Shown: one piece after another, positions 17,244-23,622 of the stretch
How positions within the stretch are numbered: position 1 is the stretch's first letter
Layout of the letters: each line of letters opens with the position of its first letter
NCBI RefSeq assembly: GCF_014201315.1
Contig: NZ_JACHDY010000001.1
Location: forward strand, 744,001-808,000
Direction of reading: 5' to 3'
From: Edaphobacter lichenicola
Lineage (GTDB): Bacteria; Acidobacteriota; Terriglobia; Terriglobales; Acidobacteriaceae
DNA: 64,000 bases
Position numbers and translations under genes: made by a program
The notes under the pieces: generated by a model
The model's database searches: none
The model's input: the letters and a program-made list of their open reading frames with translations, nothing else
Told to the model about the DNA's origin: nothing

Positions 17244-18494
17244 CTAGCCGTGGAGGGTGTTCCAGACCAGGATGAGTGAGAGCGAGGTGACGATGATGAC
17301 CGTCGTCCAGGCGATGACGTTGAACCAGCGCTTGTTGGTGTATTTGCCCATGAGGTCGTGCTTGTTGATCAGATTCAGCATGAAGACGAGAACCAGGGGT
17401 AGGAGAACGCCGTTGAGCACCTGCGAGAGGATGCTGAATTTGACAAGTGGAAAGTTCGGGATCAGGACGATGGCAGCGCCGGCAAAGAGCAGCACGCTGT
17501 AGAGCCAGTAGAAGAACTTCGCTTCGCTGAAGCTCTTGTCCAGACCGCTCTCGAAGCCGAGGCCTTCGCAGACGGTGTAGGCGGTCGAGAGGGGCAGGAT
17601 GGAGGCGGCGAAGAGGGACGCGTTGAAGAGGCCGGCCGCGAAGAGAATGAAGGCGTACTGACCGGCCAGGGGCTTCATCGCTCCGGCGGCGTCGGAGGGG
17701 TCGGCGATGTGGCGGATGCCGTGGGTGTAGAGGGTTGCGGCGCAGGCGACGACGATGAACCAGGCGACGATGTCGGTGAAGATGGAGCCGATGATGACAT
17801 CCAGCCTTGAGGCCTTGTACTGGCGAACGCTGACGCCTTTTTCGACGATGGAGGATTGCAGGTAGAACTGCATCCAGGGGGTGATGGTGGTGCCGATGAC
17901 GGCGACGGTGGTGTAGACGTAGTCCTTGTCGGACCAGACGTTGCGTGGGGGCAGCTTGACGGTTTCGACGAGGGCGAGGTGCCAGTCGGGGCCGCTGAGT
18001 ACACCGGTGATGATGTAGGCGATGTAGAAGACGCTGGCGATGAGGAAGATCTTTTCGACGCTCTTGTAGTCACCTTTGACCACTAATATCCAGACGATGA
18101 AGGCGCAGACGGGGACGCTGGCGTATTTGGAGATGTGGAAGAGCTGCATGCTGCCGGCGATGCCGGAGAACTCGGTGACGACGTTGGTGAAGTTCACCAC
18201 GATGAGCAGGATCATGATGAGGAAGGTGATGCGGAGGCCGAACTCTTCGCGGATGAGGTCGCTGAGGCCTTTGCCGGTGACGACGCCCATGCGGGCGCAC
18301 ATCTCCTGCACGACGATGAGGGCGAGGGTGATGGGGAGCATCGTCCAGAGGAGCGTGTAGCCGAACTGCGCGCCGGCTGCGGAGTAGGTGAGGATGCCGC
18401 CGGCGTCGTTGTCCACGTTGGCCGTGATGAAGCCGGGGCCGAGCACGGCGAAGATGAGAATGAGTCGGGTTCTCCAGGTGCGCCAGGGGCTCAT
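17244..18494 (-). CDS. Nramp-family divalent metal transporter with altered metal site
   Basis: 416 residues, about 11 hydrophobic helices. TM1 reads GPGFITANVDNDAGG: Asp28 aligns with Asp of the Nramp DPGN motif, but the rest is NDA. TM6 reads TTITPWMQFYLQSS where Mn/Fe transporters have A-T-I-M-P-H; the metal-binding Met is Thr. Loss of the thioether ligand is known in Nramp-related Mg2+ and Al3+ transporters, so manganese or iron uptake should not be assumed. AAGGA six bases before the ATG fixes the start. It lies 166 bases downstream of the aldo/keto reductase and may be the last gene of that run. Confidence 0.88.
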   Translation of the reverse strand: MSPWRTWRTRLILIFAVLGPGFITANVDNDAGGILTYSAAGAQFGYTLLWTMLPITLALIVVQEMCARMGVVTGKGLSDLIREEFGLRITFLIMILLIVVNFTNVVTEFSGIAGSMQLFHISKYASVPVCAFIVWILVVKGDYKSVEKIFLIASVFYIAYIITGVLSGPDWHLALVETVKLPPRNVWSDKDYVYTTVAVIGTTITPWMQFYLQSSIVEKGVSVRQYKASRLDVIIGSIFTDIVAWFIVVACAATLYTHGIRHIADPSDAAGAMKPLAGQYAFILFAAGLFNASLFAASILPLSTAYTVCEGLGFESGLDKSFSEAKFFYWLYSVLLFAGAAIVLIPNFPLVKFSILSQVLNGVLLPLVLVFMLNLINKHDLMGKYTNKRWFNVIAWTTVIIVTSLSLILVWNTLHG

Positions 18495-18660: not shown

Positions 18661-19668
18661 CTACAGCTGGTTACGATCGGTCTGTACGAGGTGGTGGAGC
18701 TGTCTTGCGGGGGCTTCCAGGGCGCGGTCTTCGGCTATCTTCGCGTTGGCTTGAATGTGGATGGGATTTTTTGAGGAGAAGAGGATGACGCTCCTGGGAT
18801 TCATGACTAGCGCGGCTTTTAGCATGAGGTGGGCGAGTTGTTCGGGGTTGCTGAGGTCGATGTTCGTGGATGCGGACCAACGTTGGCATAGCTGTTTGTC
18901 TTCGGATAGGGTGCGATGCAGTGAGCGGAAGTTTTCGGTAAGGGAGCGGTGATGGATGCGGAAGGGCGATGTTGGGGATGCCGCAGCTTCGGAGTCTGCT
19001 TCTGGATTTATTTCAGGGTCTACTTCGGGGTCCAGGACGGACCACTCGTACTGGAGGGTGCGGCAGTAGGCGGGATGCTGGGCGAGGAGGGTGGGGATCT
19101 TGTCGGCGCTGCTGCCTATGCCGAAGGAGCCGACGGTTCCTTGCTGCACCTGCTCTTCGAGAAAGCTTAGGAGGGCTTCGTCGCGCAGGTCGGCGGCTGA
19201 GACTTCGTGGAGCAGCCATAGGTCGATGTGATCGGTGCGAAGGGCGGCGAGGCTGCGTTCGAGGGAGGCTTTGGCTTGCTGCGGGGTGAAGGTGGCCCTC
19301 TCGCTGGTGCGCTTGGCGGCACTGGCGGCTTGCGCGAGACGGTGCTTCGCGCTGGGAACGGCTTTGAGGATGGGTCGGGCTACGCGGCGGGCGAGCGATA
19401 GGAACGGCGATTTTTTTGTTGGGGGGATTCCGTACTTGGTGGTGACGGTGACGTGGTCGCGATGGCGCTGGAGGAACTCGCCGAGACAGCTCTCGGCTTC
19501 GCCGTAGCCGTACATGGGAGCGACGTCGAAGTGGCGGATGCCGGCGTCGTAGGCGGATTCGAGGATGGCGAGGGAGTCGCGGCGGCCCATCGCGCCCATC
19601 AGGCTGGAGCAGCCGAAGCCCAGGGGAGTGGTGGTGCGACCGGTATCTCCGAGTGCAATCTTCTCCAT
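18661..19668 (-). CDS. Aldo/keto reductase
   Basis: 335 residues, NADPH-dependent TIM-barrel reductase. The catalytic tetrad is visible as D48 (HFDVA), Y53 (MYGYGEAE), K78 (VTTKYG) and H154 (LLHEV). About residues 83-125 form a long basic insert after the Lys strand. A negatively charged segment (EVDPEINPEADSEA) lies near 215. It is 27 bases downstream of the GMC oxidoreductase stop in the same direction, so the two are very probably co-transcribed. An oxidase plus ketoreductase next to a glycosyltransferase suggests sugar modification; substrate not known. Confidence 0.87.
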   Translation of the reverse strand: MEKIALGDTGRTTTPLGFGCSSLMGAMGRRDSLAILESAYDAGIRHFDVAPMYGYGEAESCLGEFLQRHRDHVTVTTKYGIPPTKKSPFLSLARRVARPILKAVPSAKHRLAQAASAAKRTSERATFTPQQAKASLERSLAALRTDHIDLWLLHEVSAADLRDEALLSFLEEQVQQGTVGSFGIGSSADKIPTLLAQHPAYCRTLQYEWSVLDPEVDPEINPEADSEAAASPTSPFRIHHRSLTENFRSLHRTLSEDKQLCQRWSASTNIDLSNPEQLAHLMLKAALVMNPRSVILFSSKNPIHIQANAKIAEDRALEAPARQLHHLVQTDRNQL

Positions 19669-19695
19669 TGGCCTCCGTTTTGTTCCCTGAAGAGA

Positions 19696-21234
19696 TTAGC
19701 TGAGATGATCGCTGAGGCGCAGGGCCAGGGCAAGGACGGTGTGGGTGGGGTTGGAGAAGCCGGAGCTGGGGAAGACGGCTGAGCTGCAGATGTAGGTGTT
19801 GGTGAGGCCGTAGAGGCGGAGGTCGGTGTCGACGATGCCGGTGGCGTCGGAGGGGGACATGCGCATGCCGCCCATGTGGTGGTTGCTGTCGTCGCAGCGG
19901 GTGAGGAAGTTTGGGCTGCCGGAGAGGAGGTCTTCGTTGGGGAGGATGCGGGCTACGCCGGCGAGGGCGCGCTGGGCTATGAGGACATACTGCCGGATAG
20001 TCTCCAGTTCCCTTTCGGAGATCTGCCAGTCGAAGCGGATTCGGAGGAGGCCGAGGGGGTCGCGCTGATCGGTGAGGGTGATGCTGCTGCGGGAGGTTGG
20101 CTCCTGCTCGCAGTGGACGCGGAGGAAGATGCGGACCTCGGGTGGGCTGTAGGCGCGGCGTTGAACCTTGTAACGCCAGCCCTGGTGGACGAGCATGGGG
20201 AGATGATTTGCGGTGTGGCGGAGGTTGTCGCGGGTTACCTCGCTGAAGCGTCCGCGCATGAGGTTCCGGATGGTTGATTTCGCCTGGCCGCGAGCTTTGC
20301 CGGTGTCTTCGAAAGACATGGTGGAGCCGATGTTGAGGGTGCTGTGGGCGGCCTGTGCGCGCGGGAGGAGGCGGAGTTTGGGGAGGTATTTGAAGCCGTG
20401 GGCGAAGATGGGATCGAAGGTGTCGTGGAAGCGCTTCGGGTCGAGCGGCTCGATGGCGGCGGCGTTGCAGTCGATGTGATCCTGAAAGTGCTGGCCGAGG
20501 AGGCCGGAGCGGTTCCAGGGTAGACCGCCGGGGCGAGGCTGGAGGAAGAAGCGCGAGCTCTCGATTCCGCCGAGGGCGAAGATGTAGCTGGGCGCACGGA
20601 AGATGGCTTCGATGCCGGTGAGGGTGCTCGCGCGAAGGCCGGTTGCGGCGGTGCCTTCGGTTATCAACTCGACTGCGCTGGCGTGAAGCCAGAGGTGAAT
20701 GTTGGGATGCTCCCTGAGTGTCTTGTGATGGAGGCGGGCGAAGTTTGGTTCGGGACACCAGCGCGAGAGGTAGGCTTCGAGATCTTCGAACTGGGTGAAG
20801 GGCAGGTTGAGATCTTTCCAGACCTCTGCGTCGCTGCGTTCGACTTTGGCTAGCCCCTCGAGGGCGAGAGCGCGCTCGTAGAAGGAGGTCAACGTGGACT
20901 TTGCGAATGGCCAACCGCTTTCGGGGACGCCGGGCCGGGGGGTGAAGTCGAGGGCGTCGAGCTCGAGGATCTGGCCTCCCCAACGGACTGTAGTTCCTCC
21001 TTTTACGCGGATGCGTCCGGTGTGGATGCCACGGTGGGGGAGGCCGGTGATCTCGCTGTGGTAGAGGGCCTGCGAGGAGTCTTCGCGGGTTGCGCCGCCG
21101 CCTTCGAGAAGGAGGACTTTTTTGCCCCTTCGCGCGGACTCTACTGCGAGGGTGATGCCTGCGGCTCCGGCGCCGACGATGCAGAGGTCCGCGGCGAGGA
21201 CGGCAGGCGACTCGTGGAGGAGATCGTGAATCAC
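19696..21234 (-). CDS. GMC-family FAD-dependent oxidoreductase
   Basis: 512 residues. The N-terminal FAD dinucleotide motif is CIVGAGAAGITLA (about 18-30), with the second FAD contact GGTTVRWGG. The C-terminal GMC domain has HHMGGMRMS and NPTHTVLALALRLSDHL, whose Asn/His region contains the catalytic pair. GMC enzymes oxidise alcohols to carbonyls. The GTG at 21234 overlaps the TGA of the glycosyltransferase (GTGA), fixing the start; a longer frame upstream lies within that gene and is spurious. No signal peptide, so it acts in the cytoplasm. Operon partners are the CgeB-like glycosyltransferase and the aldo/keto reductase. Confidence 0.88.
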   Translation of the reverse strand: MIHDLLHESPAVLAADLCIVGAGAAGITLAVESARRGKKVLLLEGGGATREDSSQALYHSEITGLPHRGIHTGRIRVKGGTTVRWGGQILELDALDFTPRPGVPESGWPFAKSTLTSFYERALALEGLAKVERSDAEVWKDLNLPFTQFEDLEAYLSRWCPEPNFARLHHKTLREHPNIHLWLHASAVELITEGTAATGLRASTLTGIEAIFRAPSYIFALGGIESSRFFLQPRPGGLPWNRSGLLGQHFQDHIDCNAAAIEPLDPKRFHDTFDPIFAHGFKYLPKLRLLPRAQAAHSTLNIGSTMSFEDTGKARGQAKSTIRNLMRGRFSEVTRDNLRHTANHLPMLVHQGWRYKVQRRAYSPPEVRIFLRVHCEQEPTSRSSITLTDQRDPLGLLRIRFDWQISERELETIRQYVLIAQRALAGVARILPNEDLLSGSPNFLTRCDDSNHHMGGMRMSPSDATGIVDTDLRLYGLTNTYICSSAVFPSSGFSNPTHTVLALALRLSDHLS

Positions 21235-22307
21235 CGACTGCCTGCGTGCGCTGTTTTGGTAGAGGGCTTCAATTTTTCGATGATTGATTGGGCGCGCTCG
21301 ACGATGAGCTCGACCTGCCGGTCGTTGTAGTAGCCGTCGCGTGCCGCGCGGATGCAGCCAGCTGCTGCGATGCGGTTCCGCGATGCCTCGTCGGGCAGGT
21401 AGCGGCGAATCTTTGCGGCTAGCTCTTCGAATCCGGTGAAGAATACCGCCTCCTCGTCTTCTTTGAAGCGCTGCATGTGGCCGTCGGAGCGCTCGGCGAG
21501 CAGGAAGCCTCCGCAACCGGCGATCTCGAAGCTCTTGTGCACGAACTCGTCGCAGTTGGAGTGGGTGATGAAGCTGAGGTTGATTTTGGATCTCCAGATG
21601 CCTTCGCGGTACTCGTCGCGAAAGAGTTCGCCGCCGTTGAAGAGGGCTTTGTAGGCGCTGGGCTCCATGGCGCGGCCCCACTGGCGGGGGTTGCCGGAGA
21701 TGACGACGGGAAAGCCGCAGTCGCGCCAGAGCCGCGTGAGGGTTTGGGCGCGGTCGTCGTAGGGGGTGCCGATGAAGGAGACCTCGCGGTTTCTGTCGGC
21801 GTCGGACCAGCCCTCCGGCGGCGGGAACTGCAGCGTGGGTTCGTAGGCGGTCTGAATCTTGATGACGTCGCGCGCGCCACGCGATTTGTAGTCGAGGATG
21901 TTCTGGTCGCGCTGGACGACGTGGAGGTCGTAGTGGGGGATGTCCTTCATGTACATGCGCCAGCCTGGATCCTGGCGGGTTCCGAAGGGGTTGTCGATCA
22001 TGTAGCTGACCGTCGCGATGCTCATGACGCGCATTCGGTCCAGCGTTCGAGGCCGTATGTAGAGGAGCTTATCGGTCCAGAGGACGTCTGGTTTTTCTGC
22101 TTCTGCGATTTTGATCAGATCCGTATTGAGCCGTGTTACGGAAGGTCCGATGACGAGGCGCTGGTTTACCTTGCGTAGGACAGGATTTCTGGATTCGTAG
22201 TCGAAGACGTTGAAGGGAATGACCTGGTGTCCGAGGCGCTCCAATGCCCAGAGGCGATAGAGGGAGGTGTCGTTTGGTGAGAGGCCGGTGGCGTACAGGA
22301 TCTTCAT
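21231..22307 (-). CDS. CgeB-like glycosyltransferase (GT-B fold)
   Basis: 358 residues. It starts MKILYATGLSPNDTSLYR and shows the GT-B arrangement: N-terminal acceptor half, then VSFIGTPYDDRAQTL, and a C-terminal donor half with INLSFITHSNCDEFVHKSFEIAGCGGFLLAE, the pattern of the family represented by spore-maturation protein CgeB. The E of FEIAGCGG is the usual nucleotide-sugar contact. Start ATG 22307 is chosen because the longer frame covers the end of the MgtE_N gene. It is 37 bases after that gene and overlaps the GMC oxidoreductase gene by four bases. Sugar and acceptor unknown. Confidence 0.83.
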   Translation of the reverse strand: MKILYATGLSPNDTSLYRLWALERLGHQVIPFNVFDYESRNPVLRKVNQRLVIGPSVTRLNTDLIKIAEAEKPDVLWTDKLLYIRPRTLDRMRVMSIATVSYMIDNPFGTRQDPGWRMYMKDIPHYDLHVVQRDQNILDYKSRGARDVIKIQTAYEPTLQFPPPEGWSDADRNREVSFIGTPYDDRAQTLTRLWRDCGFPVVISGNPRQWGRAMEPSAYKALFNGGELFRDEYREGIWRSKINLSFITHSNCDEFVHKSFEIAGCGGFLLAERSDGHMQRFKEDEEAVFFTGFEELAAKIRRYLPDEASRNRIAAAGCIRAARDGYYNDRQVELIVERAQSIIEKLKPSTKTAHAGSR

Positions 22308-22344: not shown

Positions 22345-23622
22345 CTAGTGGCTCGCCCGCAAAAGGGCAATCACCTGTTCGGCGTGAATGACGCCGGCGA
22401 GATGCTTTTCGTTGTCGATGACCGGCAGGGAGCGCAGGTTGTACTTGTCGAAGAGCTCGGCTACCTTGCGGCCGTTGGCATCCACGTTGCAGGTGACGAG
22501 ATGGCTGTGGGGCAGATCCGCCAGGGGCGTGCCGGGCGCCGCGAGCAGGAGCTGGACCAGCGGAACCAGGGCGATAATCTTCTCCTCTTCGTCGAGCAGG
22601 TAGATGTCGGTGATCATGTCGATATCGCCTTCGAATTCGCGCAATGCGGCGATTGCGTGATCGGCGAGGGCTGACGACGGCAGGGCGAGGTACTCGGTCG
22701 TCATGCGGCCAGCGGCGGAGTTGCCGGCGAACTCGAGCAGGTCTTCGACCTCCTGGCGCTCCTCGGGGTCCATCTCCTCGAGGATGGCTTCGGAGCGCTC
22801 GTCGGTGAGCTCGGAGAGGAGGTCGGCGGCGGCGCCGGGGTCCATCTCTTCGACGATGCCTGCGATCTGCTCGGAGTCGAGCGACTCGATCAGCGACTGC
22901 TGCATCTTCGGCTTGACCTCCTCAAGGGCCTCGGCCGCAACCTCCTCATCGAGCGAGACAAAGAGAGCGTGACGCTCGGCGGGGGCCAGCTCTTCGAGGA
23001 TGTCCGCGATGTCGGAGGGATGCATCTTGGAGAGGCGATCCTGCTCGATCTTGAGGCGGACGCGGCGGGCGGGGTCGCGGTCGATGAGGTCGACGAAGTC
23101 CCATGGGATGACGCTGGCACCGAAGCGGGAGGAGATACGGTCGACCGAGGTGGACGGGAGGCCTTTGAGGAGGCGGCGGACGGCTCCGCGCATGCCGACC
23201 TCTACCTCGGCGATGCGGAGCGAGAGGTCGGGAAGATCGTCCTGGATGTTCTCCCACACCAGATCGACGTCGTTTACGCGGACGACCTTGTGGCCGTGCA
23301 CGTCGATGATCTGCTGATCGAGGAGATCGCGCTCGAGTAGAAGAAACCTCTCATCTTCAGGCAGTGGAGTGGGTTGGGCGGACTCGCGGAGTTGCATGGC
23401 GCCGTCGGGACCGAATTCGAGCTGGGAGATCAGGACCAGGGAGGGCTTGTCGGTGCGCTTGGATGAGGCCAGTTTGAGGACGATGCCGTGGATATGGGCC
23501 GCATCGACCGAAGGCGCTACGGCCAGCTCGCGCACGTGGCCCAAGGTGCCTCCCCGGGCGTCGGCAACGGCCGATCCCATGAGGGCTGAGACGCTGGTCC
23601 TTTGATTGGCATGCCTGGTCAT
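22345..23622 (-). CDS. PRC-barrel / MgtE_N / CBS-pair protein (MgtE sensor without transport domain)
   Basis: 425 residues: a PRC-barrel-like N-terminus (about 10-125, with IDVHGHKVVRVNDVDL), the helical MgtE N-domain (about 190-300; SDIADILEELAP and repeats such as IVEEMDPGAAADLL), then two CBS motifs (about 300-420). In MgtE channels this cytosolic assembly binds Mg2+ and gates the pore. Here there is no membrane domain, so it must act on another protein. The most likely candidate in the window is the Nramp-like transporter at 17244, though three genes separate them. It is the first gene of a minus-strand operon. Confidence 0.86.
   Translation of the reverse strand: MTRHANQRTSVSALMGSAVADARGGTLGHVRELAVAPSVDAAHIHGIVLKLASSKRTDKPSLVLISQLEFGPDGAMQLRESAQPTPLPEDERFLLLERDLLDQQIIDVHGHKVVRVNDVDLVWENIQDDLPDLSLRIAEVEVGMRGAVRRLLKGLPSTSVDRISSRFGASVIPWDFVDLIDRDPARRVRLKIEQDRLSKMHPSDIADILEELAPAERHALFVSLDEEVAAEALEEVKPKMQQSLIESLDSEQIAGIVEEMDPGAAADLLSELTDERSEAILEEMDPEERQEVEDLLEFAGNSAAGRMTTEYLALPSSALADHAIAALREFEGDIDMITDIYLLDEEEKIIALVPLVQLLLAAPGTPLADLPHSHLVTCNVDANGRKVAELFDKYNLRSLPVIDNEKHLAGVIHAEQVIALLRASH

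Follow-up and report, generated by a model that had tools for sequence, protein, structure and literature searches.

The two-enzyme sugar epimerase DprE1/DprE2 is a drug target in tuberculosis. In this mycobacterial system, according to passages of PMC9993113, the C-2 hydroxyl of decaprenylphosphoryl ribose is oxidised by DprE1 to a keto intermediate, which is reduced by DprE2 with NADH or NADPH. A 64,000-nucleotide stretch of the Edaphobacter lichenicola genome (positions 744001-808000 of contig C1 in a 4.88 Mb genome; hereafter the window) carries on its minus strand three genes, encoding a CgeB-like glycosyltransferase (21231..22307), a glucose-methanol-choline (GMC) family flavin adenine dinucleotide (FAD) oxidoreductase (19696..21234) and an aldo/keto reductase (AKR; 18661..19668). 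A preliminary description of the window had read the oxidoreductase and the reductase as a split sugar epimerase, with the CgeB-like enzyme transferring or presenting the sugar. This interpretation is partly supported by the present analysis: the combination of an oxidase with a ketoreductase stands, as a conserved and co-inherited pair found at several separate sites among envelope-glycan genes, but it is two genes, GMC and AKR, that form the relevant unit and not the CgeB-GMC-AKR trio.

The GMC-AKR pair resembles DprE1/DprE2, as far as the source passages describe the latter, in its proposed two-step logic and in its envelope-glycan setting. It does not belong to the DprE family but would work alike, as no Pfam or NCBIfam model of the vanillyl-alcohol oxidase (VAO) type or of the short-chain dehydrogenase/reductase (SDR) family matched the GMC or AKR protein at E<=0.001. 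DprE1 is an FAD enzyme with a VAO-type fold and DprE2 is an SDR, whereas the present enzymes are a GMC and an AKR. The DepA/DepB system, in the passages of PMC9427786 consulted, inverts a secondary alcohol of deoxynivalenol via a 3-keto intermediate and employs an aldo-keto reductase, DepB; it differs in that DepA is a pyrroloquinoline quinone-dependent alcohol dehydrogenase and not a GMC enzyme, and in that the substrate is a mycotoxin. In butirosin biosynthesis, according to the title of a cited paper, C-3'' is likewise epimerised by two enzymes (BtrE/BtrF), one a dehydrogenase and the other a distinct NADPH-dependent reductase, but there the oxidising enzyme is NAD-dependent and not a GMC flavoenzyme. 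Pyranose oxidases and glycoside 3-oxidases share the GMC fold and the oxidation of sugars, according to the portions of the literature used, but their structural identity to the window GMC is only 14-18%; one of them, PsG3Ox, sits in a C-glycoside cleavage cluster, and its paper contains no word starting with 'reductase' or 'epimer'. Tandem or fused GMC-SDR genes on rhizobial, Paracoccus and Paraburkholderia plasmids are alike in joining a member of the same GMC family, at about 30% identity, to a nicotinamide-type reductase, and the annotated examples sit in polysaccharide or glycosyltransferase loci; they differ in that the partner is an SDR (PF01370) and not an AKR as in the window. In a literature search, a GMC-AKR or GMC-SDR epimerase was described in no title among the matches listed, and in the passages checked of PMC12234687 the terms GMC, aldo-keto reductase and epimerization occur in the reference list only.

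Conservation of the GMC-AKR pair

The three genes are packed as the preliminary description had claimed: the GTG start of the GMC gene at 21234 overlaps the CgeB stop codon as GTGA, and 27 bases separate GMC from AKR. Pfam confirmed all three families, with matches of the 358-residue CgeB-like protein to PF13524 (E 3.8e-22, 79.2 bits versus a cut-off of 25), of the 512-residue GMC protein to PF05199 (GMC_oxred_C; E 1.4e-24, 87.7 bits versus a curated cut-off of 24.6) and of the 335-residue AKR to PF00248 (E 1.4e-27, 97 bits versus a cut-off of 24). Close relatives of the locus were found in Edaphobacter lichenicola, Granulicella and other Acidobacteriaceae.

Conservation was assessed in a same-genus set of 62 genomes, the window's own included, in which GMC or AKR was counted at an identity of at least 54%, and in a phylum set of 396 genomes, 25 of which contained a GMC match at E<=1e-40. 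GMC was present in 23 of the 62 genus genomes and was followed in every one of them by AKR, downstream on the same strand, within 350 bases in 20 genomes and across a 1.7 kb gap in the other three (G002, G041 and G061). AKR also adjoined GMC in all 13 phylum matches at E<=1e-160. The window's own genome holds three GMC_oxred_C matches and 13 AKR matches, and two of the three GMC genes abut an AKR gene; since the chance of such adjacency is approximately 3e-6 by simple arithmetic assuming random placement within 200 bases, the arrangement is more than coincidental. At two loci, a protein of about 520 residues that by eye looks secreted is encoded between GMC and AKR (L043 9620-11194 and L048 9619-11178), and the L043 copy had no Pfam match.

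The second pair in the same genome consists of overlapping GMC2 and AKR2 genes (L065 14686..17231), GMC2 being 29% identical to the window GMC, and is surrounded by MBOAT, acyltransferase-3, glycosyltransferase-1 and WecG/TagA genes of a polysaccharide cluster. Its divergence is too great for a copy made recently, and the AKR2 branch is very long. Two Pect-lyase_RHGA_epim proteins are encoded in the same cluster (L066 2162-4138 and L065 12296-14608).

Relocation and transfer between phyla

The pair is not confined to one site. It occurs elsewhere in the genus in seven relocated loci (L051, L052, L055 and L079-L082), and on a megaplasmid of the betaproteobacterium Cupriavidus metallidurans CH34 (L163 13971-16608) both genes lie side by side, with 52% identity for GMC and 51% for AKR. 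Trees were calculated from 36 loci with both genes. Near copies and truncated loci (L042, L059, L060, L062 and L078) were omitted, together with short loci from the same genomes and every locus lacking AKR. The Cupriavidus copy grouped with L051, L052 and L079-L082 in the GMC tree (Shimodaira-Hasegawa-like approximate likelihood-ratio test, SH-aLRT, 98) and with L051, L052 and L079 in the AKR tree (SH-aLRT 99), and C. metallidurans CH34 thus appears to share the pair with the Acidobacteria through horizontal transfer as a cassette. Pairwise distances of GMC and AKR were correlated (r = 0.90 over 30 loci, a value reached by none of 2000 permutations); because this correlation also reflects shared descent, the shared odd placement in the two trees outweighs it.

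The rows of L065 and L170 sit on long branches, and their placement is unsure. Loci L121 and L122 grouped with L065 in the GMC tree, but with L067, L071 and L171 in the AKR tree, and these differing groupings of the distant pairs hint at more than one pairing event, although the long branches make this uncertain. Four distant pairs (L067, L121, L122 and L171) lie near a gene that reads by eye like the CTP synthase gene pyrG. The GMC gene of L052 (genome G051) has one in-frame TGA at about 9213, entered in the tree as X, which may indicate a pseudogene or a sequencing error. Carriage by phages was considered and found to be unsupported: seven phage records matched AKR, none over more than 80% of its length, and the five rows shown reached at most 66% cover and at most 31% identity.

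CgeB as a separable core gene

CgeB is more widespread than the pair, being present in 57 of the 62 genus genomes. The three-gene order, for which a search in other genomes had been proposed, is conserved in 15 of the 23 pair-bearing genus genomes, occurs in two other genera of this family as well (L167-L169) and was seen down to a GMC identity of approximately 44% (L061); the lack of conservation that the preliminary description had named as refuting its reading was thus not observed. A fixed trio was nevertheless rejected, as each can be found apart from the other: CgeB in genomes that lack the pair, and the pair at sites with no CgeB beside it. CgeB loci were read in four genomes lacking this pair (L132-L134 and L140); in L132-L134, CgeB lies directly between the MgtE_N-CBS and NRAMP genes that flank the trio in the window, and in L140 (G059) neither was found beside CgeB within the stretch read. 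Conversely, L047 has the pair flanked by MgtE_N-CBS and NRAMP with no CgeB gene; in G052, probably the genome of L047, CgeB is on another contig. The genomes to which the seven relocated pairs were assigned keep CgeB elsewhere, in four cases (L135-L138) adjoining MgtE_N-CBS, and no CgeB match was found in the 29.5 kb read at the Cupriavidus site. A role of CgeB as a fixed partner presenting the sugar is therefore not supported.

The AlphaFold model of CgeB (mean predicted local distance difference test score, pLDDT, 75.5) has a GT-B fold and resembles GT4-type enzymes across residues 1-346 (Z 21.0, root-mean-square deviation (rmsd) 5.0, 319 aligned residues). CgeB is read as a glycosyltransferase conserved in its own right, which often stands in one gene row with the pair and may act on what the pair produces, but is not required. 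The CgeB matches in G007, G036, G039, G043, G051 and G057 contain one internal stop each, possibly reflecting an early gene end or decay.

Glycan-gene context of the pair

Envelope-glycan genes (lipid A, lipopolysaccharide (LPS) or glycosyltransferase genes) were found within a few kb of the pair in five of the seven relocated loci; at sites of the window type, CgeB is itself a glycan gene near the pair. The family scan identified lpxA, Gfo/Idh and LpxI genes near the pair in L051 and a Gfo/Idh gene in L052, where lpxA- and lpxI-like genes were recognised by eye; L055 carries a GT4 and an acyltransferase gene, L080 a GT2 gene, and L082 GT2, kdsB and glmS genes. Since L051 and L052, and likewise L080 and L082, are near kin at seemingly the same site, fewer than five events lie behind this count. 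In L170, from another family of the phylum, the pair is accompanied by a WecA-like transferase and by an asparagine synthase reading frame ending in a GT1 domain.

Catalytic residues and folds

In all 36 aligned rows, the diverged pairs included, His452 and Asn495 of GMC and the tetrad Asp48, Tyr53, Lys78 and His154 of AKR are kept. These residues are presumed to act as in the GMC family and as the catalytic tetrad of the AKR family, respectively, and judged from the sequences both enzymes look active. The model of the GMC protein (mean pLDDT 84.3) was closest to fructose dehydrogenase (Z 33.1, rmsd 4.2, 431 aligned residues), followed by glucose dehydrogenase (Z 30) and by C-glycoside and pyranose oxidases (Z 28-29), and a profile search of solved structures returned glucose, fructose and cellobiose dehydrogenases first. 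The distant solved relatives of AKR found by profile search include L-galactose dehydrogenase, IolS and DepB (E 3.3e-16 for DepB). GMC_oxred_N was not reported for the window GMC at E<=0.001, and a relative (L176) matches it. Two more specific labels for GMC were rejected, namely pyranose oxidase (TIGR02462; 23.5 bits versus a curated cut-off of 544.9) and the mycofactocin dehydrogenase MftG (TIGR03970; 43.4 bits versus 387.45).

SDR partners and fusions

Plasmid relatives of GMC with about 30% identity in Rhizobium binae, R. etli and R. tumorigenes overlap an SDR gene (PF01370), in loci that contain glycosyltransferases and acyltransferases and, in R. binae and R. etli, polysaccharide export genes. 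In Paracoccus liaowanqingii, GMC and SDR form a single protein of 890 residues, and in Paraburkholderia phymatum they share a single open frame of 924 codons. The YxxxK motif is present in both fused SDR parts (identified by script in Paracoccus and by eye in Paraburkholderia), where its role is assumed to be that in the SDR family. With the Paracoccus fusion as query, 14 plasmid records had one place covering at least 80% of it.

Proposed mechanism and alternative explanations

In the proposed mechanism, the FAD-dependent GMC enzyme would oxidise a secondary sugar hydroxyl by hydride abstraction to give a keto sugar, FAD being reoxidised perhaps by oxygen or by a respiratory acceptor. AKR would then return hydride from NAD(P)H to that same carbon, but on the opposite face, so that the net outcome would be the inversion of one stereocentre. 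The substrate would most likely be a sugar of an envelope polysaccharide, of LPS or of a precursor of these; the glycan contexts together with the sugar-active relatives make a sugar substrate likely. Where an oxidase and a carbonyl reductase run in opposite redox directions and are inherited together, relocated together and in some cases even fused, the simplest explanation is a stereo-inverting pair. The GMC-AKR pair is accordingly read as a two-step redox module. In the simplest form of this reading, for which we consider the chances to be about even, it would be a split epimerase working like DprE1/DprE2 with enzymes of other families; the substrate, the carbon atom and the epimerisation itself are inferred.

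Several observations weigh against this reading. The structural match of GMC is not sugar-specific, as it extends to choline oxidase (Z 29.2, compared with 33.1 for fructose dehydrogenase), and the fold alone is therefore no proof of a sugar substrate. The glycan-context counts are raw, uncontrolled counts, and no sugar nucleotide gene adjoins the window copy in the neighbourhood scanned for families. Glycan genes are also sparse at some sites: beside the pair in L079 only an acyltransferase-3 gene and no recognised glycosyltransferase or LPS gene was found, L081 has no glycosyltransferase or LPS gene by eye, and no glycan gene was recognised at the Cupriavidus site (five neighbours scanned, others examined by eye). 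The linkage itself has exceptions, in that AKR lacks this GMC beside it in two of 25 genomes (G004 and G034, the latter with a run of N at that spot), and in that only six of 19 distant acidobacterial GMC loci have an AKR within approximately 1.3 kb, in three of those on the opposite strand. Among 18 plasmid GMC loci, C. metallidurans being set apart, an SDR was found in five, an AKR at 40 bits in none and neither in 13. As SDR or AKR occurs at some GMC loci only, the reductase partner marks some branches and not the whole GMC family.

The same linkage and the same glycan contexts would apply if GMC and AKR acted in sequence on a glycan sugar without inversion, with GMC producing a sugar in keto, aldehyde or acid form while AKR reduces some other carbonyl, for instance in the synthesis of a deoxy or branched sugar. 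Some polysaccharide or glycosyltransferase loci (L166, L179 and L182) do contain GMC genes for which no AKR or SDR neighbour was found, and a keto sugar may therefore be a product in its own right; however, the pairing with two unrelated reductase families, AKR and SDR, and the two fusions suit a direct hand-over of the oxidised product better, and this alternative is judged rather unlikely. The sparse sites listed above (Cupriavidus, L079 and L081) would instead suit a pair that handles a free sugar, a glycoside or an environmental alcohol in catabolism or detoxification, like DepA/DepB or the glycoside 3-oxidases that start C-glycoside breakdown, the glycan neighbours being incidental. The accessory distribution of the pair (23 of 62 genus genomes), its mobility and the inclusion of L-galactose dehydrogenase, IolS and DepB among the distant AKR relatives are also consistent with such a role, whereas the recurrence of glycan genes at several sites and the absence of a transporter, hydrolase or regulator from the conserved unit over the sites read argue against it, and we regard it as unlikely. 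That GMC and AKR are unrelated neighbours held together by slow rearrangement might be suggested by the conservation of CgeB, MgtE_N-CBS and NRAMP around the pair without an evident functional link, but is contradicted by the occurrence of the pair at other sites and in another phylum, and further by the second, diverged pair in the same genome, the SDR equivalents and the fusions, which together make it highly improbable.

If the split-epimerase reading is correct, the pair would represent a second solution to two-enzyme sugar epimerisation, from enzyme families other than those of DprE1/DprE2, and would help to explain sugar stereoisomers in bacterial polysaccharides for which no epimerase is known. 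Those GMC, AKR and SDR genes in polysaccharide loci that have no assigned function would gain a role open to testing, and sugar centres could be inverted with a tool made of two enzymes or of one protein. The fused forms allow a direct test of the reading. More tentatively, and with less confidence than in the split-epimerase reading of the pair, bacteria may have a wide and so far undescribed group of split redox epimerases acting on the sugars of envelope glycans. These would have reached the DprE1/DprE2 solution independently and would move between phyla as a two-gene cassette, and in them GMC might be combined with an interchangeable NAD(P)H reductase (an AKR in Acidobacteria and Cupriavidus, an SDR in rhizobia and a fused SDR in Paracoccus and Paraburkholderia).

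Neighbouring genes

The minus-strand transcription order in the window is MgtE_N-CBS, CgeB-like, GMC, AKR and Nramp-type transporter. The MgtE_N-CBS gene (22345..23622, minus strand; PF03448 and PF00571), the usual upstream neighbour of CgeB, lies 37 bases from it on the same strand, and the transcript may therefore extend beyond the three genes. Scans for promoters (no promoter-like site versus 1.3 expected) and terminators (five terminator-like sites versus 5.2 expected) were uninformative. The gene for the Nramp-type metal transporter (17244..18494, minus strand; PF01566) is the downstream neighbour that marks the site and probably does not belong to the module. An Nramp transporter gene is also found near a GMC gene in Skermanella mucosa (L177 10827-12233), perhaps by chance.

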